The notes under the pieces are model-generated. The model saw only the letters and a list, made by a program, of their open reading frames with translations. It ran no database searches and was not told where the DNA came from. Below, one piece after another: positions 1,380 through 20,447 of a DNA stretch of 22,937 bases; position 1 is the stretch's first letter; each line of letters opens with the position of its first letter. The translations under genes and the position numbers were made by a program. Origin of the DNA: a virus; IMG/VR virus record IMGVR_UViG_3300010354_000699, positions 1 to 22,937 of that record. The stretch is one strand, 5' to 3'.

Positions 1380-1402
1380 TTTAATAATTAGTTTAATTAA
1401 GG

Positions 1403-1428
1403 CCCGAGATTTTATTCTCGGGTTTTTT
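1403..1428 (+). terminator. Rho-independent terminator
   Basis: CCCGAGA (1403-1409) pairs perfectly with TCTCGGG (1416-1422) around a 6-nt loop, followed directly by six T (1423-1428). It closes the 940-1379 unit 23 nt after the stop. Confidence 0.93.
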
Positions 1429-1432
1429 ATTG

Positions 1433-1440
1433 CGTAAATA
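1433..1440 (+). promoter_or_regulatory. Probable late promoter, variant CGTAAATA
   Basis: CGTAAATA keeps the AAATA core and differs from NATAAATA at one of the seven fixed positions. It follows the terminator at once, so a new promoter is needed for the next genes. Only CTTT separates it from ATG 1445, so a transcript from it would start at or next to the start codon. Confidence 0.5.
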
Positions 1441-1444
1441 CTTT

Positions 1445-1888
1445 ATGTCACAGATTATTACATGTTATACATTATTTGATTGTACAAAGACAGGAGTTAG
1501 ACAACGTTCTAAGGTTCCTGATAACTCACACGCGGATAATTATATCTATAAACGTAATACACAAGCCAATTTAGACACAATCCTACAAATTATTAGTTTA
1601 AGAAGCCAACCTGAATTAATACGAGATCCAATTAAAATTATTAAGAAAATCAAAAACACAGAGTTTGGGTTTATGTATGAAATTAACGAAGAATCATGTA
1701 ATGTGTGGTTTTTTGATTTTGAAGTTCAACATGCTAGTGTTTTTAATAATAATGTTGATTTGTTTGGACATCTTTTCCATGATTGTGATAAAATACCAAT
1801 GATAAAATGTAAGGATGAACATCCTGATTTAAGTAATTTTTTAGATATTAGTCCAGAATTACGTAATATATATTTTGAGATAAAATGA
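1445..1888 (+). CDS. Conserved marine T4-like phage protein of unknown function (147 aa)
   Basis: ATG 1445 is preferred over TTG 1430, which lies upstream of the likely transcription start. No Shine-Dalgarno is present, in keeping with a leaderless message. The protein shows QIISLRSQPE near the centre, EFGFMYE, FDFEVQH and a C-terminal ELRNIYFE. This pattern recurs, as far as I recall, in an uncharacterised family of T4-like cyanophages and pelagiphages. Scattered Cys and Asp residues (CYTLFDC, HDCDKIP) do not form a clear metal site. Its stop overlaps the next start in an ATGA (1885-1888), so the two genes are probably translated together. Confidence 0.75.
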   Translation: MSQIITCYTLFDCTKTGVRQRSKVPDNSHADNYIYKRNTQANLDTILQIISLRSQPELIRDPIKIIKKIKNTEFGFMYEINEESCNVWFFDFEVQHASVFNNNVDLFGHLFHDCDKIPMIKCKDEHPDLSNFLDISPELRNIYFEIK

Positions 1889-2363: not shown

Positions 2364-2371
2364 GATAAATA
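2364..2371 (+). promoter_or_regulatory. Late promoter GATAAATA
   Basis: GATAAATA lies in the 42-nt gap before ATG 2395. Predicted initiation near 2377 leaves a leader of about 18 nt. It would serve the run of five genes from 2395 to 4429. Confidence 0.75.
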
Positions 2372-3096: not shown

Positions 3097-3422
3097 TGTT
3101 ATTGTATGAGTTTGATGATCCACAAGATAGCAATCTAGTTGTCGCAGTGGATCGTTTAGCCCACGATTTAGATAGTGGGAAAATTAATAGTGAATGGACT
3201 GTAGACCAGCTATTGACTTACCTCGAACAATATGATATCATACTGGATGTTAGTGACATACTAAAACTATATAAAAAGCCTCCAATGAAAAAAGTAATTA
3301 GCAATATACAAAATGATAAAGTAGTTTGGCGCAGTGAAAACATGCCTGCTGATTCAGGTACTCCTACTGATAAAAACGAAAAAACAGTAAAACAAATGGC
3401 TGACCGTGCTAACAAGTTATGA
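3096..3422 (+). CDS. Conserved small hypothetical protein (108 aa)
   Basis: It starts at the ATG overlapping the previous stop by one base. Residues 1-60 are mixed helix (LVVAVDRLAHDLDSG, WTVDQLLTYLEQYDI). The C-terminal half is polar, basic and probably flexible (KKPPMKKV, then a Ser/Thr/Lys-rich end). No catalytic or metal motif is visible. Position between the coiled-coil protein and iscA in a tightly coupled run suggests co-expression, not function. I do not recognise a named family. Confidence 0.7.
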   Translation: MLLYEFDDPQDSNLVVAVDRLAHDLDSGKINSEWTVDQLLTYLEQYDIILDVSDILKLYKKPPMKKVISNIQNDKVVWRSENMPADSGTPTDKNEKTVKQMADRANKL

Positions 3423-3739
3423 TAACTGTTACCGAAGTAGCAGCAGAAAATATACAAAATAAAATAGTCAAACGTGGCAAAGGTATAGGAATTCGTATTG
3501 GTGTAAAAACCACTGGTTGTTCAGGATTGGCTTATATACTTGAATATGTTGATAGTCCAAACACTACTGATATTGAATATATTGATAAGAATTGTAGAGT
3601 TTATGTCGACCAAAAAGCTATGCCTTATTTAGAGGGACTAACAATTGATTATGTTAAAAAGGGACTTAATGAAGGTTTTGAATTTACAAATCCTATGGAA
3701 AAAGACCGATGTGGATGCGGTGAAAGTTTTAGAGTTTAA
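3419..3739 (+). CDS. iscA: IscA/HesB-type Fe-S cluster carrier protein
   Basis: Length (106 aa) equals cellular A-type carriers. The three ligand cysteines are present with standard spacing: Cys34 in GCSG, then Cys98 and Cys100 in CGCGESF. The GIRIGVKTTGCSG core is typical. An extra Cys lies in DKNCRVYV. The family binds [2Fe-2S]/[4Fe-4S] clusters or iron and passes them to apoproteins in the cytoplasm. Homologues are auxiliary metabolic genes of marine T4-like phages. The start overlaps the preceding stop in ATGA. The neighbouring RecB-type nuclease is a conceivable but unproven client; phage or host Fe-S enzymes are equally possible. Confidence 0.93.
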   Translation: MITVTEVAAENIQNKIVKRGKGIGIRIGVKTTGCSGLAYILEYVDSPNTTDIEYIDKNCRVYVDQKAMPYLEGLTIDYVKKGLNEGFEFTNPMEKDRCGCGESFRV

Positions 3740-7900: not shown

Positions 7901-9127
7901 ATGGGTCGTCCTTTAAAGATAGCGAAAGCTCAAGCAATTTTAACAGTAACAAATACTACAGCAACAACTAATATTGTTACTGTATCCCAAAATTTATCAA
8001 ATTTGGGTGTTATAGCAGGTATGCCTTTTGTACCATCTACAACTACTGGTACAAATTTGATAGCAGGTACAACATATTGGATTTTACAAATCACAGGAGC
8101 ATCTACATTTACTGTGTCTGCTACTGAATTGAGTGCTAATCCTACATATACTCCAGTTACATTAACAACAGGAACTACAGCCTCAAGTTTATCAGTTGGT
8201 GTTGTTGATAGTGGATTCAACAATCCAGAAGGTATAGCAAACACATATGGAGTTGTTGGCGGTAATACAGCAATCTATGGTAATCAAGTCCTAGCACGTG
8301 TAGCAATTGGCGTAGCAGGTACAGGTACAATTTACTCATATAATGATTCAAATGTAGTCGGTGGAGCAGGAACAGATTTCGGTAACACCCTAAGCGCAGG
8401 CAGTGTCGTTTCAAGTGTTGATTCTCAAACTGGCGCATTGACAACTATAGGCTTTGTTGACACTGTAACAGGTTATGTAACAATTGAGTGTAGTGATTCA
8501 ACTGCTACAGGTAATTTCTTAACCAGTGTGGGTAACGCTGAAACATTATATGCTAATTTACCAGTTACATTTGATGTTAATATCGGTGGTCTAAATAATA
8601 CTCAAACTTATTTTGTTAAAGAAATCGTTAATGCCGCAGCATTTACTGTATCATTTATTCCAGGTGGAGCAAACGTTCCATTAAGTGATCAAACAGTAAC
8701 ATCAAATGCTACCCAAGACCAAGTTTTACTTGACGCTGTTGCTTTGGCAAACGCAAGTGGTACAAGTTTTGTTTATGCTGATAATGAAGCAGGATTTATC
8801 TTACGTCAGAAAGGCAAACAAAAGTATTTAGTACAAGGAGCAACAAGTGGGTTGATTGCACAATGCTTAACAGCTAATTTAGCTAATGCAGCGTTGGTTC
8901 CAAATTCCATGAATATTCTTGCTACTTATGCTAACAGTGCTACACAGTTTGTACAGAGCCTAAGCGATATTGATAGTGAATTGTTTACAGCAACATCTGG
9001 ACCAATCGCAAGTGGAAATATTGTATTAGCGAACGCTGATCCAGTTTATGTAACATTTAATAGCGGTGTCGCTGCTAATACAGCTAATGGTTTAATCTAC
9101 GAATTAGTACAAATCGCAGGCGCATAA
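7901..9127 (+). CDS. Beta-rich virion-type protein (408 aa)
   Basis: ATG 7901 follows a near-perfect TAAGGAG ribosome site. The N-terminus MGRPLKIAKAQ is basic. Residues about 16-98 and 192-270 each contain a module with the pattern GxTYWI/YFVK, then a STFTVS-like strand, seen in phage fibre and decoration proteins. Residues about 290-408 are distinct (GFILRQKGKQKYLVQG, then helical ANLANAALVPNSMNILATY) and look like a conserved structural core. No membrane segment or catalytic motif is seen. It sits in the fibre block with its own structured leader and is probably a virion component. The family is familiar from marine T4-like phages, but the function is unknown to me. Confidence 0.8.
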   Translation: MGRPLKIAKAQAILTVTNTTATTNIVTVSQNLSNLGVIAGMPFVPSTTTGTNLIAGTTYWILQITGASTFTVSATELSANPTYTPVTLTTGTTASSLSVGVVDSGFNNPEGIANTYGVVGGNTAIYGNQVLARVAIGVAGTGTIYSYNDSNVVGGAGTDFGNTLSAGSVVSSVDSQTGALTTIGFVDTVTGYVTIECSDSTATGNFLTSVGNAETLYANLPVTFDVNIGGLNNTQTYFVKEIVNAAAFTVSFIPGGANVPLSDQTVTSNATQDQVLLDAVALANASGTSFVYADNEAGFILRQKGKQKYLVQGATSGLIAQCLTANLANAALVPNSMNILATYANSATQFVQSLSDIDSELFTATSGPIASGNIVLANADPVYVTFNSGVAANTANGLIYELVQIAGA

Positions 9128-9128
9128 C

Positions 9129-9434
9129 ATGGCTCAGCCGCTTCAAATTCAGACACAAACTGAAGTTGCAGTCCTTCAAGTTCAATTTAAAAATCTAGAC
9201 GAAAAAGTTGATGATTTAAAAGTTGATCTGAAGGACATGCGTTCCGCATTAGAAAGACATAGTGAGGAACATACTCAGATGATGAAAGATATGCAGGAGT
9301 CTGCTAGTGAAGCACATAAAAGCATGGCTAACAAAATTAACGCACTTGAAAAATGGCGTTGGATGTTAATGGGTGCTGGTGTTGTTATTGGGGCTTTAGG
9401 TTGGCCAACACTTGGTAAAGTGTTAGGTATGTAA
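9129..9434 (+). CDS. Coiled-coil protein with C-terminal membrane segment (XhlA/holin-accessory-like)
   Basis: It starts one base after the preceding stop. Residues about 10-75 form heptad-like helix (VAVLQVQFKNLDEKVDDLKV, ending NKINALEKW). A membrane-spanning stretch follows (WMLMGAGVVIGALGWPTLG), with the C-terminus just after it. This layout of a coiled coil ending in one membrane helix matches haemolysin XhlA-type proteins that accompany holins. The position at the end of the fibre block would also allow a tail-associated role. Lysis function is inference; no endolysin lies next to it. Confidence 0.75.
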   Translation: MAQPLQIQTQTEVAVLQVQFKNLDEKVDDLKVDLKDMRSALERHSEEHTQMMKDMQESASEAHKSMANKINALEKWRWMLMGAGVVIGALGWPTLGKVLGM

Positions 9435-9848
9435 AGTTGAGGGGCTAGACCCCTCAATTAATTTCAATTTCTCTTTTACAATATCAAAATTAATAGTATT
9501 AAATAATCCAGGATGTAATGGTTTGGGATATAATGAACTTTCTACCCAAGCATAACCATAATGTTCATCATTTAAAATTGGCATAAATTCATTCTTAACT
9601 TCACAGAAAAATGTATGGTATGTAAAATTATAATTAACAAATTGTTGAATTGGAATTAATTTATGATTTGTAATATCATAACTAATTTCTTCCATACATT
9701 CACGTTGTAAAGCTTCAAAAAGTGTTTCTTTATTTTCTACTTTACCACCGGGAATACTCCAAGTTTGACTTTTAATATCATTTCTTAGTAGATACAGGTA
9801 ACGATTCGTAGATTTACTATAGAAAAATAATCCAACACCTGTGCTCAT
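9423..9848 (-). CDS. Nudix (MutT-like) hydrolase
   Basis: This 141-aa protein carries a Nudix box at residues 35-57: Gly35, Glu41, then RECMEEI (49-55), matching GX5EX7REUXEEXGU. The usual box Gly is Ser56, a mild departure. WSIPGGK before the box is typical. The family hydrolyses nucleoside diphosphates linked to other groups, including oxidised dNTPs, NAD-type compounds or capped RNA; the substrate cannot be told. It lies 17 nt downstream of gp15 in the same direction. Its last 12 nt overlap the end of the convergent gene, and its C-terminus is encoded across the terminator hairpin. Confidence 0.92.
   Translation of the reverse strand: MSTGVGLFFYSKSTNRYLYLLRNDIKSQTWSIPGGKVENKETLFEALQRECMEEISYDITNHKLIPIQQFVNYNFTYHTFFCEVKNEFMPILNDEHYGYAWVESSLYPKPLHPGLFNTINFDIVKEKLKLIEGSSPSTLHT
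9437..9457 (+). terminator. Terminator hairpin between convergent genes
   Basis: TTGAGGGG (9437-9444) pairs perfectly with CCCCTCAA (9450-9457) around a 5-nt loop, followed by a T-rich run on the plus strand. It ends the fibre block. It lies inside the last codons of the minus-strand Nudix gene and may also stop minus transcripts, though the T-run on that side is poor. Confidence 0.8.
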
Positions 9849-9853
9849 CTAAT

Positions 9854-9861
9854 GATTTATC
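9854..9861 (-). promoter_or_regulatory. Possible late promoter, variant GATAAATC (minus strand)
   Basis: On the minus strand GATAAATC lies in the 17-nt gap between gp15 and the Nudix gene, 5 nt before the Nudix ATG. The last base departs from NATAAATA. The same 8-mer occurs by chance inside coding DNA near 8793, so this call is weak. Confidence 0.35.
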
Positions 9862-9865
9862 TCTG

Positions 9866-11236
9866 TTAGATGACTATTGAAAAATCTCCTGCTGTGTACC
9901 AACCTTCATATGACTTCTTCCAACTACCGTTAGCGTATCTATATTGAACATTGTTCACAATATTTGTCACAAATTGAACAGTTGTAGCATTCTCACTATC
10001 AAAACTTACTTCCCATTCCATTGTGTTGGCATTGAATTGTACGATATCGTTAGCATTTGCTACTAAATTGCCCCAAGCTACAGTTGTATCTCCGTCACTA
10101 CCTATGTTATCAACGAGCAAATATCTAACATTGGGTGTAGGTCCAGGAAGTCCTGCGTTTGGTCCTGTTACCTGCGGATTAACCACACCGTCTACAGGAA
10201 CTAATGTATTTTGTGGTAATGTGTCTGGGTCAACATTATAAATTAATAATCTATCATCTAATGGATCTGGTACTATAGTTCCAACTATTTCTGTATCTAA
10301 GTAAGGATTTTGTAACCATATTTGACTAATACCTGGTCTAACTGCTCCATAAGCATTTAAGAAACTTGACCAATATATCGTTGTGTTTGGTGGACTTATA
10401 TTATCTAAATCACTGTTAGGTGGATTAAAGGGTTGATTTTCAGGTAGTACCTGTAATGTATTACCTAAGTACAGTAATTTATAACCAAATGGTGTAATTT
10501 TTTGTCTAGTTCCTAATAATAAATCATCATCTTGTGTTGCCAATAAACTATTTCCTTGAAATATACTAGCAATAATTTTTTCGATCACACCCAATTTCTT
10601 AAGCTTACTGCTTGTGCTTATCCATATAGGCATATAGAATTTCCAAGTTAGTACATCAATAGGATTTCCAGTACCTTGTGGAATACTTCTACTACTAAAT
10701 GTTAAGCCATCTTGGTAAACTACAGTTAAACTTGTCCAATCAACGAAATTATCTGTGCTTTGTATTTCTAAACTTGGATTAAACAGTGTAGCCATTTGTT
10801 CTACTAACTCAAGTTTTTGATTATAGTTTGTAGTCCAAAAATCAACAGTTATTCTTAATGTGTAAGGTACTGGCATCAATCTTTCAATCGTAAATGCTTG
10901 CCCCTGTGTTGTTTCATATGAGGTTGTTTCTTCATTGTAAGCACGTTGTCTGACATTTAACTTATCTACAAAAAATGGTTCTTGCGTTCTTTTTTGATCA
11001 TACTCAAGTCCACTAATATAATATGTTATCATAGGAGCACTTGGTAAACTACTAGCACTATTATTTGCCTGTATAGTAGCAGCCTGCCTACTTTGATCAC
11101 CGTACATTATAGGAACACGTATTAAAATGTCATTACCAGCAGGATCTTTTCCTTTGGTAACATACCAATTGCTAAAGATTTTAGCGAACTGGATTAAAAA
11201 ACGACGGATTTGATTATCGTAGAAGAACTGTGCCAA
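9866..11236 (-). CDS. gp15: Tail sheath stabiliser and completion protein, gp15-like
   Basis: The N-terminal 240 residues resemble T4 gp15: FFYDNQIRRF, then IFSNW and ILIRVPIMYGD, followed by a VPYTLRITVDFWTTN strand and an EQMATLFNPSLEI helix. gp15 forms the ring that caps the finished tail and joins it to the neck. T4 gp15 has 272 residues; this one has 456, with a C-terminal extension of short Trp/Tyr-rich beta segments (VAWGNL, MEWEVSF, YRYANGSWKK, EGWYTAGDF). The start is TTG: AAAAGG lies 8 nt upstream, an in-frame stop is just before it, and the next in-frame Met falls inside the conserved region. Its own late promoter is at 11260-11267. Confidence 0.88.
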   Translation of the reverse strand: MAQFFYDNQIRRFLIQFAKIFSNWYVTKGKDPAGNDILIRVPIMYGDQSRQAATIQANNSASSLPSAPMITYYISGLEYDQKRTQEPFFVDKLNVRQRAYNEETTSYETTQGQAFTIERLMPVPYTLRITVDFWTTNYNQKLELVEQMATLFNPSLEIQSTDNFVDWTSLTVVYQDGLTFSSRSIPQGTGNPIDVLTWKFYMPIWISTSSKLKKLGVIEKIIASIFQGNSLLATQDDDLLLGTRQKITPFGYKLLYLGNTLQVLPENQPFNPPNSDLDNISPPNTTIYWSSFLNAYGAVRPGISQIWLQNPYLDTEIVGTIVPDPLDDRLLIYNVDPDTLPQNTLVPVDGVVNPQVTGPNAGLPGPTPNVRYLLVDNIGSDGDTTVAWGNLVANANDIVQFNANTMEWEVSFDSENATTVQFVTNIVNNVQYRYANGSWKKSYEGWYTAGDFSIVI

Positions 11237-11259
11237 TTTAAATACCTTTTGCTATGTTG

Positions 11260-11267
11260 TATTTATT
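11260..11267 (-). promoter_or_regulatory. Late promoter AATAAATA for gp15 (minus strand)
   Basis: On the minus strand AATAAATA lies between the gp14 stop (11276) and the gp15 start (11236), 23 nt upstream of the TTG. The leader includes the AAAAGG ribosome site at 11250-11245. Confidence 0.75.
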
Positions 11268-11275
11268 GTTTAATT

Positions 11276-12994
11276 TTATGGTGTAGGTGGAATAACGTCT
11301 GGCTTTAAATCTAGTATCGAACTTAATGGCTGTGCTTCAGGTACAAAGGTTTGTGTTTGTTGCATATAAATTTGATTACTATCATTTATAAACAGTGATT
11401 TACGTGACAAGTCATTTATAGTAAATCCTGTTTCTGTTCTTACATTTTCACTTATTCTTACCCACATAACACCGTCCCAACGGAACAATATTTGCGGTAA
11501 ATAATCAATTCGTAAAAAGTAATCCCCAACTTGTGGATTCTGTGGGAAACTTATACCTGTACCAGTTGGTAGTCCATTAGGTGGAATATCTGTACCAGTT
11601 AAGTATCCAGCACTGTAACCAAAACTTCTAGGTGTACTACGTGCTATATATTGAAATCTAGGATCACAATCAGCACGATAATCCATTTGAGGTGTTATTT
11701 CAGCAGTGAAACCAGGTGCTTCAGGATCTTGGTCTGCTGTAGCATATGTATTGTCTGCAGTGCCATATGGTCCTGTAACTGCTCCTAATGATTGTACTGT
11801 TAAAACTTTTTGTCCTTCAACTGGTCCTGATCCTGAACCTAATTTGTCAGGAGCAAGTTCTAATACTTCTAGGTTAGCTTGTACAAATTTATCAAGTTGT
11901 GCTGACATATCCATATCAGCAGTCATATCCCAAATACTTTGTAATTGTTCTTTAGGAACTTTAATAGCATAGCCTGTATTCTTAAACTTAGGATCACGCA
12001 TTGCTATAACACTACCTGTTACAGTGGTGCTTGGGGCTCCTGCGCTACTTGTTATAATATTAATAGGTGGTGCTGGTTGACCAATCTTATTACTAGGAAC
12101 ACCATTGCTTTGATATTCACCGTATGTTGGAACAACATAAAGTTTGCTATTATCGTAACCTGCTTTAGGTACTATACGTCTTGCTTCATTTAGTTGTGCG
12201 TCATTAACAGCAATATTAGTATTGTACCTACCTAGTATATCACGTAAGTTTTGATTTGTATCTAAAGCCCAATATGCTGGATTTGGGGGATTGATTCCTA
12301 TAGGTACTTCTGCTATTGAAATATAATTTTTATCACCATAAGTAATAACATATCCTGGTGGATAAGTTCTATCTTTGTCCCAAAGTCCTAAATAATTATC
12401 TTGGTTAATTGGTTCTGTCAGTATTTGACTAAATTCTTCACTATCAACTAATGGTTCGCATTTAATACGCCATAAGTGCGGAAACCAAGTTTGGCTGAAC
12501 CCTTCACTAGCATAATTAGCATCAGTTATTTGCATAAAACGTTTTAATGCTACTGGGATAGTTTCTTTTAATGGGTTATAATCTAGCAAGTGTGGTAACT
12601 CAAGCACATCCCCAACCATTAGCTTTCTGCCTATAATGTCAATCATATCATTATAATGAACTACAATGAAAATAATGTCGTTGTTTAAAAACAAACCAAA
12701 TTGACTTAAGTCAAAGTCCAAATTTTGTACTTGATAATGACCACGTAATCTGTAAATATTTGGGTCATATGTCCGATCTCTATTTTCAAGAAATAACAAA
12801 TCCTGTATATTAGTAGGGTTTAATGAATCATACTCAGGTTGGGTATAATCAACACTAGGGCCTTGATTCGTAGGACCCAAATATTTGTGAATGTAAAGGT
12901 CGGTGCCACCTACAGTGAGTTGTTCAGAAATGGTTCTATCAAAAAATCTGTAGTCGTTTTGTTTATTTGGACGGTATAGTGATAACTTTGGCAT
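11276..12994 (-). CDS. gp14: Neck protein gp14-like, enlarged
   Basis: ATG at 12994 gives MPKLSLYRPN, the N-terminus I recall for marine T4-like neck proteins; the TTG at 13021 lies upstream of the promoter. The core (IHKYLGP, DLLFLENRDRTYDPNIY, FDLSQFGLFLNND, LMVGDVLELPHL) matches gp14, which joins gp13 to close the head-tail neck. T4 gp14 has 256 residues; this has 572. An inserted segment at residues 204-245 (LWDKDRTYPPG, then VITYGDKNY, ending PPNPAYWAL) resembles CBM5/12 chitin-binding modules. Near residues 490-512 is a GDYFLRID, FRWDG, WVRI motif. No ribosome site precedes the ATG, and a late promoter ends 4 nt before it. Confidence 0.85.
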   Translation of the reverse strand: MPKLSLYRPNKQNDYRFFDRTISEQLTVGGTDLYIHKYLGPTNQGPSVDYTQPEYDSLNPTNIQDLLFLENRDRTYDPNIYRLRGHYQVQNLDFDLSQFGLFLNNDIIFIVVHYNDMIDIIGRKLMVGDVLELPHLLDYNPLKETIPVALKRFMQITDANYASEGFSQTWFPHLWRIKCEPLVDSEEFSQILTEPINQDNYLGLWDKDRTYPPGYVITYGDKNYISIAEVPIGINPPNPAYWALDTNQNLRDILGRYNTNIAVNDAQLNEARRIVPKAGYDNSKLYVVPTYGEYQSNGVPSNKIGQPAPPINIITSSAGAPSTTVTGSVIAMRDPKFKNTGYAIKVPKEQLQSIWDMTADMDMSAQLDKFVQANLEVLELAPDKLGSGSGPVEGQKVLTVQSLGAVTGPYGTADNTYATADQDPEAPGFTAEITPQMDYRADCDPRFQYIARSTPRSFGYSAGYLTGTDIPPNGLPTGTGISFPQNPQVGDYFLRIDYLPQILFRWDGVMWVRISENVRTETGFTINDLSRKSLFINDSNQIYMQQTQTFVPEAQPLSSILDLKPDVIPPTP

Positions 12995-12998
12995 ATAG

Positions 12999-13006
12999 TA
13001 TTTATC
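12999..13006 (-). promoter_or_regulatory. Late promoter GATAAATA for gp14 (minus strand), leaderless geometry
   Basis: On the minus strand GATAAATA is followed by CTAT and then the ATG at 12994. With T4-type spacing, initiation falls at or beside the A of the start codon. It is back to back with the plus-strand promoter at 13020-13027. Confidence 0.75.
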
Positions 13007-13019
13007 GGGCAAGGTTGAC

Positions 13020-13027
13020 AATAAATA
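13020..13027 (+). promoter_or_regulatory. Late promoter AATAAATA (divergent from gp14)
   Basis: AATAAATA lies 43 nt before ATG 13071. Only 13 bp separate it from the minus-strand promoter at 12999-13006. It likely drives 13071-14866. Confidence 0.72.
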
Positions 13028-13070
13028 ACAGGTCGTGTATAATCAACGATGTTTACTAGATGGAGCTAAC

Positions 13071-14258
13071 ATGGCAAGAACTGCTAAAAAACCAACGCAA
13101 CAAGCATTTGTAAGTGTAAAATCAATCGTAATCAAAGACCCTGATACGAAATATTATGGGGAAGAACCAGAATTTACACTACAGCCCGATAATCGTACTG
13201 TGGCTCTTATGAAAGGTTTTACTTGGTACAATAGATTTTTGACTAGAAAAGAAGCAAAAGACTTTCTTTGCCAATATGTAGAAACAAATGGTAAGTCAGA
13301 AGATAGTAAAGTTATGCGTAGGATTGATGAAAACGAACTTATCCCAACGTTGGGATGGTTAGCAAGAATGAGTTTGCGTGGATTGGAACTTAATGAACAT
13401 GAAACACTCACACTTAAAAATGAAATCGCAAGATTAATTCGTTCAGTACACAAGCCCGAACTCAAACAAAAATCACAAACAGGCAAAAACGCAGTAGAAA
13501 AAACTGTAGTTAAAGCACGTCCTAATGTCCAAGAAATTATGAAAGACAAGGCACGTGAAGCAGCAGGCGAACTTGAGGGGTTGTTTGACGAGTTTATCCA
13601 ATCAGGAGCAAAAACAATTGTTACTAAAACAATGGATGAACTTACTAAGAAAAACGTATTACCCCAGCATACAAATATCTTAGTTGATATTTGGAACAAA
13701 AAACTTGATGAGTTTTTGGAAGTACAAAAGGGTAAAAGTGATTTAGCAGAGGGCTATACAAACTTGTCCAAAGTACAAGTCAAAAACATTATCAAGTATA
13801 TTGAGCAGGTAATCAGTGATCTTAATGCTTATGTTAATGTCAAAAAAGCACAAAAGGCACCACGTAAGCGTAAGGCAGTGCCAGTTGAAAAGCTTGTTAG
13901 TAAACTGAAGTTTCAAAAAGAGTTTAAAGATCCTGCTAGTAAGTTAGATTTGGTAAGTATACACCCAACAAAATTGCATGGTGCTAGTGAAGCGTGGGTT
14001 TATGATACTGCAAAACGTAAACTACATCATTACATTGCTGATGAATACAGCAAAACATTTAGTGTAAAAGGTAATACATTGCTAGGCTTTTGCACTAAAC
14101 AAAGCGAAGTAAAAACACTTCGCAAACCTAGCGAACAGCTAAAAGAAGTTGTTGGAAGTAAGCCTGCCGCAAGAAAATATTTTAAAGATATTAAAGCGGT
14201 AAGTGTTGCCCCAACAGGACGTTTTAGTGAGACTATGATTATTTTAAAGGCATTTTAA
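13071..14258 (+). CDS. Conserved marine T4-like phage protein of unknown function (395 aa)
   Basis: ATG 13071 is preferred over GTG 13035 because a GGAG ribosome site lies 5 nt before it and the basic MARTAKKPTQ N-terminus fits the family. The protein is Lys-rich. An N-terminal domain (KGFTWYNRFLTRKEAKDFL) is followed by a long charged helical middle with a basic stretch (KKAQKAPRKRKAVPVEKL). The C-terminal domain (KLHHYIADEYSKTFSVKG, TLRKPSEQL, IKAV) ends in MIILKAF. I recall this C-terminal pattern from hypothetical proteins of T4-like marine phages. The basic middle could bind nucleic acid, but no enzyme motif is visible. Confidence 0.8.
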   Translation: MARTAKKPTQQAFVSVKSIVIKDPDTKYYGEEPEFTLQPDNRTVALMKGFTWYNRFLTRKEAKDFLCQYVETNGKSEDSKVMRRIDENELIPTLGWLARMSLRGLELNEHETLTLKNEIARLIRSVHKPELKQKSQTGKNAVEKTVVKARPNVQEIMKDKAREAAGELEGLFDEFIQSGAKTIVTKTMDELTKKNVLPQHTNILVDIWNKKLDEFLEVQKGKSDLAEGYTNLSKVQVKNIIKYIEQVISDLNAYVNVKKAQKAPRKRKAVPVEKLVSKLKFQKEFKDPASKLDLVSIHPTKLHGASEAWVYDTAKRKLHHYIADEYSKTFSVKGNTLLGFCTKQSEVKTLRKPSEQLKEVVGSKPAARKYFKDIKAVSVAPTGRFSETMIILKAF

Positions 14259-14880: not shown

Positions 14881-14888
14881 GATAAATA
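14881..14888 (+). promoter_or_regulatory. Late promoter GATAAATA for gp13
   Basis: GATAAATA lies in the 39-nt gap between mazG and gp13, 17 nt before ATG 14906. An AAAAGG ribosome site follows at 14892-14896. Confidence 0.75.
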
Positions 14889-15748: not shown

Positions 15749-16381
15749 ATGATTATCGGTGTTACTGGTTTGATCGGTAGTGGCAAGGATACTGTAGCAG
15801 ATTATTTGTGTACATTTTATGGATTCAAGCGTTGTAGTTTCGCTGAAAGTTTAAAAGACGCATTATCAGCAATATTTGGTTGGGATCGTGAACTTTTAGA
15901 AGGGTCAACAAAATCCAGTCGTGAATGGCGTGAGCAAGTTGATACTTGGTGGGCTAAACGATTAAACATTCCGCATCTTACACCACGTTGGGCTATGCAG
16001 ATTTGGGGTACTGAAGTTGCTAGAGAAAACTTTCATAATGATATTTGGGTAGCAAGTGTTGAAAATAAATTACGTACAAGTAAAGATGATATTGTAATTA
16101 CTGACTGTAGATTTAGTAATGAAGTACAAGCTATTAAAAACTCAGGTGGTATAGCTATTCGTATTGAGCGTGGATCACGTCCAGAATGGTATGAATTTGC
16201 CGAACAATTTAATAAGGGTCCTAGTACAATAGGTTGGGCATTGAGCAAATCTGAACTTATGAACTGTAATATTCATGCTAGTGAATATAGCAGTGTTGGT
16301 CTTGATTATGATTTCGTTGTTGATAATAATGGATCAATAGACGATTTACATAGTAAAATAAAATCAATACTCAATTTGTAA
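15749..16381 (+). CDS. Deoxynucleoside monophosphate kinase (T4 gp1-like)
   Basis: It has a strong ribosome site (AGGAGA) before ATG 15749. A Walker A motif GLIGSGKD spans residues 7-14. The order CSFAESLKDAL, then WGTEVAREN, DIWV and IVITDCRFSNE follows phage dNMP kinases of the T4 gp1 type. These phosphorylate dNMPs to dNDPs for phage DNA synthesis in the cytoplasm. T4 gp1 has 241 residues; this has 210. No late promoter precedes it, so it may be read from gp13 or from an early element at 15721-15735. Its 3' end overlaps the convergent HNH gene by 18 nt. Confidence 0.88.
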   Translation: MIIGVTGLIGSGKDTVADYLCTFYGFKRCSFAESLKDALSAIFGWDRELLEGSTKSSREWREQVDTWWAKRLNIPHLTPRWAMQIWGTEVARENFHNDIWVASVENKLRTSKDDIVITDCRFSNEVQAIKNSGGIAIRIERGSRPEWYEFAEQFNKGPSTIGWALSKSELMNCNIHASEYSSVGLDYDFVVDNNGSIDDLHSKIKSILNL

Positions 16382-16711
16382 ATCACCACGCTTCCAATTA
16401 ACATGTTTACGTTTAACTACCTCAACACAATTTAAACAAATTGTACGTAAGTTATTAAGTTGAATGTTTAATAAACTTCCATCAATATGATACACTGTCA
16501 TTTGTGTTGGATATATCGACTTAAATCCGCACAAATCACAAATACTTTTCTTTTTATACCCAGATTTTTCCCAATTAGGAACTCTGGGTTTTATTTTTTC
16601 TTTTTTACGACCACAAACATCACATATGCTTCTATAGTGTATTATCCCATTTCGCCAATAATTTACGGCGCAAACATTAATATTACATTGTTTACATATA
16701 GGCCTAATCAT
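16364..16711 (-). CDS. HNH endonuclease, free-standing, possible homing type
   Basis: The start is set at ATG 16711, since the upstream part of the open frame crosses the promoter. The 115-aa protein has two CxxC pairs near the N-terminus (CKQC, CDVC) and two more bracketing the catalytic core (CDLCGF and CLNC), suggesting two zinc sites. The core is VYHIDG, then NNLRTICLNC, an HNH/beta-beta-alpha-metal nuclease. Free-standing HNH genes between structural genes of T4-like phages are often homing endonucleases. It is antisense between the dNMP kinase and the sheath gene, with its own perfect late promoter, and is likely a recent insertion. Target site unknown. Confidence 0.85.
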   Translation of the reverse strand: MIRPICKQCNINVCAVNYWRNGIIHYRSICDVCGRKKEKIKPRVPNWEKSGYKKKSICDLCGFKSIYPTQMTVYHIDGSLLNIQLNNLRTICLNCVEVVKRKHVNWKRGDLQIEY

Positions 16712-16716
16712 TTTAT

Positions 16717-16724
16717 TATTTATA
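16717..16724 (-). promoter_or_regulatory. Late promoter TATAAATA for the HNH gene (minus strand), leaderless geometry
   Basis: On the minus strand a perfect TATAAATA is followed by ATAAA and then ATG 16711. With T4 spacing the transcript would begin at the start codon or within one or two bases of it. Confidence 0.78.
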
Positions 16725-16766
16725 AACCTTCGAAGGCATAACAATACCGTGTTTTCCTAATGTTTT

Positions 16767-20439: not shown

Positions 20440-20447
20440 AATAAATA
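20440..20447 (+). promoter_or_regulatory. Late promoter AATAAATA for the tail tube gene
   Basis: AATAAATA lies 23 nt before ATG 20470, with an AGGAG ribosome site at 20455-20459. It lets the tube be expressed independently of the sheath. Confidence 0.78.

Follow-up and report, generated by a model that had tools for sequence, protein, structure and literature searches.

Late transcription in bacteriophage T4 is the textbook case of late genes with leaders and ribosome-binding sites; T4-type late promoters have the box TATAAATA and are served by gp55, gp33, and gp45. The first base of the T4 late box is at −13 (PMC2988020); the box spans −13 to −6, +1 is the sixth base after it, and a gap of 5 nt between box and start codon therefore sets the A of AUG at +1. 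Phage transcripts that begin at the start codon have been described elsewhere. The lambda cI mRNA starts at AUG and is cited as a leaderless model, and in E. coli both 70S initiation on leaderless mRNA and its preference for AUG are established (PMC9031893). The Thermus phage phiYS40 produces leaderless middle and late mRNAs (PMC3594737), and leaderless mRNA is commonly made in Deinococcus-Thermus from a −10 box adjoining the ORF (PMC12340547). No description of T4-type late boxes ending 4 or 5 nt before a start codon was found in the literature searched, which covered few subscription papers.

The window analyzed here is a 22,937-base IMG/VR virus fragment from an uncultured T4-type jumbo phage. 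The GenBank matches closest to its gp14 were from the jumbo phages Atu_ph07, PA5oct, GAP32, RaK2, and 121Q (∼34 to 49% identity), and a search of gp14 against bacterial genome contigs for a host gave no match. An earlier note had proposed that late mRNAs from four genes of the window (gp14, an HNH gene, a Nudix gene, and the gene at 1445) are leaderless, with a late box ending 4 or 5 nt before ATG and no clear Shine-Dalgarno (SD) sequence. All four arrangements were confirmed by direct reading (Table 1). None of the four genes had an SD 4 to 14 nt upstream, where the box fills those positions. Compared with the T4 consensus, the HNH box was exact and the gp14 box differed by one change, while CGTAAATA and GATAAATC carried two changes each and are variants. 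Taken alone, the window provided weak statistics: TAAATA was found at a gap of 4 to 5 nt in 3 of 33 first-ATG ORFs and at none of the gaps from 8 to 15 (P of ∼0.01). Box-like words were not in excess (78 one-mismatch matches versus a mean of 92 in shuffled sequence), and thus the signal resides in position, not abundance, and relatives were needed to decide the question.

Table 1. Late boxes, associated genes, and neighboring signals in the window (gaps are counted from the end of the box to the ATG)
Feature	Coordinates	Strand	Evidence or remark
Intrinsic terminator hairpin followed by U6	1399..1428	+	ΔG −16.2 kcal/mol, z −5.5; kept in several family members
Late box CGTAAATA, 4 nt before ATG 1445	1433..1440	+	Sequence; box at 4-5 nt in 13/13 family members
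Proposed leaderless gene; product of 147 aa, function unknown	1445..1888	+	Homologues
Leadered late box GATAAATA, 23 nt before ATG 2395	2364..2371	+	Cluster leadered 12/12
Nudix hydrolase CDS, proposed leaderless	9423..9848	-	PF00293, E 8.8e-14
Nudix late box GATAAATC (variant), 5 nt before ATG 9848	9854..9861	-	Box at gap 5 in 25/25 cluster members
gp14-like neck/head-closure CDS, proposed leaderless	11276..12994	-	Virion structural protein phrog_11591, E 2.4e-79
Late box GATAAATA of gp14, 4 nt before ATG 12994-12992	12999..13006	-	Sequence; TAAATA kept in homologues
Divergent σ70-type promoter TTGACA-17-TATAAT for gene 13071	13015..13043	+	12/12 matches; 0.07 expected by chance
Divergent gene, 395 aa, phrog_11903, function unknown	13071..14258	+	
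Leadered late box GATAAATA, 17 nt before gp13 ATG 14906, AAAGG between	14881..14888	+	gp13 cluster leadered 48/48
HNH endonuclease-like CDS, proposed leaderless	16364..16711	-	phrog_10822 HNH endonuclease, E 1.7e-4; 63 homologous loci
HNH late box TATAAATA, 5 nt before ATG 16711	16717..16724	-	Sequence; geometry in 53/55 HNH cluster members
Palindrome CCTTCGAAGG adjoining HNH promoter	16727..16736	.	This sequence, CCTTTAAAGG, or a similar one precedes most HNH homologues
Leadered late box AATAAATA, 22 nt before ATG 20470, AGGAG between	20440..20447	+	Cluster leadered 23/23

Distances from NATAAATA to the first ORF ATG were collected from 2.38 Mb of uncultured relatives from which near-duplicates had been removed. 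This survey of promoter-to-start distances, suggested in the earlier note, gave a bimodal distribution with a sharp peak at 4 to 5 nt (gap 4, n = 20; gap 5, n = 45), only 14 sites at gaps 6 to 16 together, and a broad second peak at 17 to 28 nt. All 65 start codons at gaps 4 to 5 were ATG, with no GTG or TTG, and none of nine AT-rich control words taken through the same distance test produced a comparable peak. When every 6-mer was compared at every position ahead of 2,527 ORFs, TAAATA at gap 5 was the top enrichment (128 versus 14.8), above every SD word. In three large relatives, the counts of TAAATA at gaps 4 to 5 against the background per gap were 27 versus 0.62 (G020; P, 1e-26), 45 versus 2.0 (G019; P, 2e-31), and 15 versus 0.75 (G001; P, 8e-11), where P values are Poisson against gaps 8 to 15 and ORFs were called by first ATG with no gene finder. 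Overall, TAAATA stood at 4 to 5 nt in 3 to 5% of the first-ATG ORFs of these large relatives. The suggestion that the arrangement recurs at up to four genes therefore held for the four genes but not as a limit, as 77 ORF clusters contained at least one leaderless candidate, single-member clusters counted.

SD words of at least 4 nt preceded 65% of leadered starts, 7% of leaderless candidates, and 11% of all ATGs, and 84% of leaderless candidates versus 9% of leadered starts had no SD word at all; the comparison is partly circular, since the box occupies the SD position. The first box position was G in 68% of leadered late boxes versus 37% of the gap-5 leaderless ones in the uncultured relatives, in which a minor second ATG peak (14 sites) was also seen at gap 7. 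In G001, a 267-kb relative, a permuted tmRNA gene (L106:8987-9409) overlaps the gap-5 box at 9004, and that candidate may thus be due to chance. A PHROG search with another leaderless family gave no match. An IscA/HesB-like iron-sulfur gene (PF01521; positions 3419 to 3739) and a MazG gene (PF03819; 14432 to 14866) lie among the structural genes of the window, and an IscA-like family is also found among the leaderless candidates (cluster 37).

For gp14, 80 homologue loci identified by a scan of viral contigs were compared together with the window (81 in total, partly redundant). TAAATA preceded the ATG by 4 nt in 29 loci, by 5 nt in 44, and by 6 nt in 3 (76 of 81), while the flanks diverged. 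Once near-identical upstream sequences were removed, TAAATA was invariant in all 20 sequences with the geometry, although the flanking columns varied and both 4- and 5-nt gaps occurred; these gaps shift the frame between homologues, and the box region is therefore not coding. The five exceptions (L037 to L039, L081, and L083) had a strong SD and a box ∼19 to 32 nt before the start. More distant homologues from other scans had leaders of 19 to 22 nt with AGGA-type sites in most, and homologues with no box at 4 to 7 nt were leadered, mostly with AGGA- or GGAG-type SD sequences. Across these loci, gp14 as a rule has an SD where a leader is present and lacks one where the box adjoins the ATG. Two sets of candidate sites were rejected: those at offset 35 in the gp14 cluster are TAAATA words internal to the gene and not evidence of leaders, and AATAAATA at 13020 (+) is merely the spacer of the gene 13071 σ70 promoter. 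The latter promoter and the late promoter of gp14 stand back to back, a layout that seems to be kept in the closer gp14 loci. In the leadered loci L037, L038, L039, and L083, the apparent gp14 start codon is ATT, preceded by a strong SD (AAGGAGA or AGGAGA). The bacterial gene infC also starts at ATT.

The gene order gp14-gp15-Nudix is common to the window, PA5oct, and GAP32. In the Nudix cluster the box was GATAAATC in 20 members, whereas five more distant members had NNTAAATA. At 11236-11267 on the minus strand of the window, gp15 has an apparent TTG start, AAAGG, and a leader of 23 nt following AATAAATA; the leadered class would thus include a start codon other than AUG. Upstream of gene 1445, whose product had no match in Pfam or PHROG searches, the terminator ends 16 nt before the ATG, which limits the leader length there. 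These 16 nt, from 1428 to the ATG, hold the box and little else, and several homologues are arranged alike.

Across the 63 HNH loci, the box, the 4- to 5-nt gap, and the ATG were kept despite differing N-terminal lengths of the protein. In the window and in most of the HNH loci L148 to L202, the palindrome lies just upstream of the late box, beside a hairpin and A-run that would act as a terminator on the opposite strand. The palindrome and HNH gene may move as one piece, or the palindrome may mark the target of the endonuclease.

The taxonomic range of the geometry was assessed by comparing TAAATA-N4-5-ATG with TAAATA-N10-11-ATG. The former prevailed in uncultured contigs (e.g., 80 versus 18, 45 versus 12, and 22 versus 4), and no clear excess was seen in T4, KVP40, cyanophages, or cultured jumbo phages. 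ORF-based counts were 0 for T4, Syn9, Atu_ph07, and GAP32 and 1 for PA5oct, these five being sampled in part, and 15, 27, and 45 for G001, G020, and G019, respectively. Cyanophages were rejected as relatives sharing the trait, there being no excess in Syn9, S-PM2, P-SSM2, P-SSM4, or S-ShM2. Pelagibacter phage HTVC008M stood apart from the other cultured phages with 12 sites, all with a gap of exactly 5 nt and all at annotated CDS starts, and the genes concerned include those for head closure, the baseplate tail tube cap, the tape measure, and the DNA end protector. No report of this geometry in HTVC008M was found in the literature searched. In Mosig (6 sites) and Melnitz (3 sites), the geometry was weak and limited to gap 5.

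The relatives G001 (E value, 8.6e-75), G019, and G021 encode the late sigma factor gp55, which was not found in G020 or in the window, itself a 23-kb fragment. At leadered sites of the clade, A made up 50 to 55% of bases at positions 5 to 7 after the box, with a modest TA maximum at 4/5 to 5/6; this composition is consistent with initiation at the T4 spacing. Provided that the enzyme of the clade shares that spacing, the leaderless reading follows directly. From the computed geometry, its bimodality, the exclusive use of AUG, the conservation, and the gp55 genes of relatives, we infer the 5′ ends and the translation of the leaderless class as follows. The boxes would be T4-type late promoters used by host RNA polymerase with the phage late sigma gp55. 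Where a box ends 4 to 5 nt before ATG, the RNA would start at the A of AUG, or no more than about one nucleotide away, and have no leader, and a 70S ribosome (or a 30S subunit with initiator tRNA) would bind the 5′-terminal AUG with SD pairing not used. A shift of 1 to 2 nt in the transcription start site would yield leaders of 1 to 2 nt, or 5′ ends within the AUG at gap-4 sites. Two modes would thus coexist, other late genes (gp13 and others) having 17- to 28-nt leaders with an SD, and the choice would be largely fixed per gene family. It is highly probable that these late mRNAs are leaderless and gp55 dependent, in a mode specific to lineage and gene family. The coincidence with T4 +1, the recurrence in four unrelated families despite differences in codon phase, N-terminal length, and flanks, the restriction to AUG, and the absence of the geometry from related cultured phages lend comparative support to the view, put forward before, that this would be a deliberate mode of translation.

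Other explanations for the position of the box were considered. It is very unlikely that TAAATA next to the ATG is an A/T-rich signal for translation independent of an SD, carried by longer transcripts from promoters further upstream. A/T-rich sequence before AUG can sustain SD-independent initiation, but the identical word lies 17 to 28 nt before SD genes in the same phages, the bimodal distances leave a gap at 6 to 16 nt, and other A/T-rich words have no such peak. Transcription from further upstream is also at odds with the terminator that cuts off gene 1445 and with the surroundings of gp14, where the σ70-type promoter is the sole strong promoter just upstream and points away from the gene. 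Coupling to an upstream cistron by termination-reinitiation, with the box incidental, is less likely still as a general account. It is possible for the Nudix gene, whose ATG lies 17 nt beyond the gp15 stop and which is the weakest of the cases in the window owing to this nearby stop and its off-consensus box. However, the gap-5 box is kept in every member of the Nudix cluster, no nearby same-strand gene lies upstream of gp14 or the HNH gene, and the terminator precedes gene 1445.

The true starts could also lie elsewhere, either at a downstream codon with an SD or at an in-frame upstream one, behind leaders of normal length, and the gp14 ORF of the window does stay open upstream as far as TTG 13021. 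This was considered a slim prospect, lower again than coupling, as homologues with 4- and 5-nt gaps place the upstream region in different frames and the annotated starts in HTVC008M are the gap-5 ATGs. The earlier note had asked whether homologues start at a different codon with a ribosome site; in PA5oct, gp14 is leadered (GATAAATA followed after 19 nt, with an AGGAG site, by the start) and begins at the aligned codon. A chance pattern in an A/T-rich genome can be given almost no credence: it would suit the window by itself, where significance is weak and boxes are no more numerous than in shuffled sequence, but not the Poisson P values in the three large relatives (8e-11 to 2e-31), the flat controls, or the lack of enrichment in A/T-rich T4.

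A broader proposal is that late translation is reprogrammed through changes in initiation factors, initiator tRNA, or the ribosome that favor 5′-AUG mRNAs. The two geometries would then form a regulatory code for the timing or strength of each late gene, and late phage mRNAs would escape competition from SD-bearing mRNAs. This proposal is doubtful, and neither S21 nor tRNA content gave support for it. A phage ribosomal protein S21 was rejected as a correlate: besides G019, G020, and HTVC008M, it occurred in PA5oct, Atu_ph07, SCTP-2, and Phosso, it was not found in G001, and it is thus not discriminating. Phage-encoded initiator tRNA was likewise rejected, with a tmRNA only and no tRNA gene in G001, one Met tRNA of unknown type in G020, and no pattern.

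If late mRNAs of these phages are leaderless, the mode could fit a promoter together with its start codon into <20 bp, between terminators and divergent promoters. It may also suit genes whose products are needed at modest levels or that move as units, such as the HNH gene. T4-type late promoters would then be set for leaderless mRNA reproducibly, by gene family, in an uncultured jumbo clade and in a cultured Pelagibacter phage. Homologous genes that follow one or the other of the two modes would provide a natural system for asking when leaderless initiation is used and why, and HTVC008M, being cultured, makes the claim testable. Gene callers based on SD sequences may misplace starts in these phages.

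Among the systems compared, HTVC008M (147 kb, Kyanoviridae, infecting Pelagibacter) shares the box-to-ATG geometry of the jumbo clade, although it has gap 5 only, whereas the clade has gaps 4 and 5. The clade resembles T4 in its box sequence, in being T4-type phages, in the late sigma gene of relatives, and in a leadered class with similar leader lengths; in contrast, T4 has no NATAAATA site <12 nt from an ORF ATG. The phage phiYS40 is alike in having leaderless middle and late mRNAs, but it infects Thermus, of a host phylum rich in leaderless genes, whereas the clade has a T4-type late box and two modes fixed per gene family. A phiYS40-like programme would involve a shift in host IF2/IF3 levels in the course of infection. 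In Deinococcus-Thermus a promoter element likewise precedes the start codon by a few base pairs; there, however, the genes are cellular and the elements are bacterial −10 boxes, as opposed to the phage late sigma box of the clade. Lambda cI is one regulatory gene, while the candidates in the clade form a class of late genes for structural proteins and enzymes.
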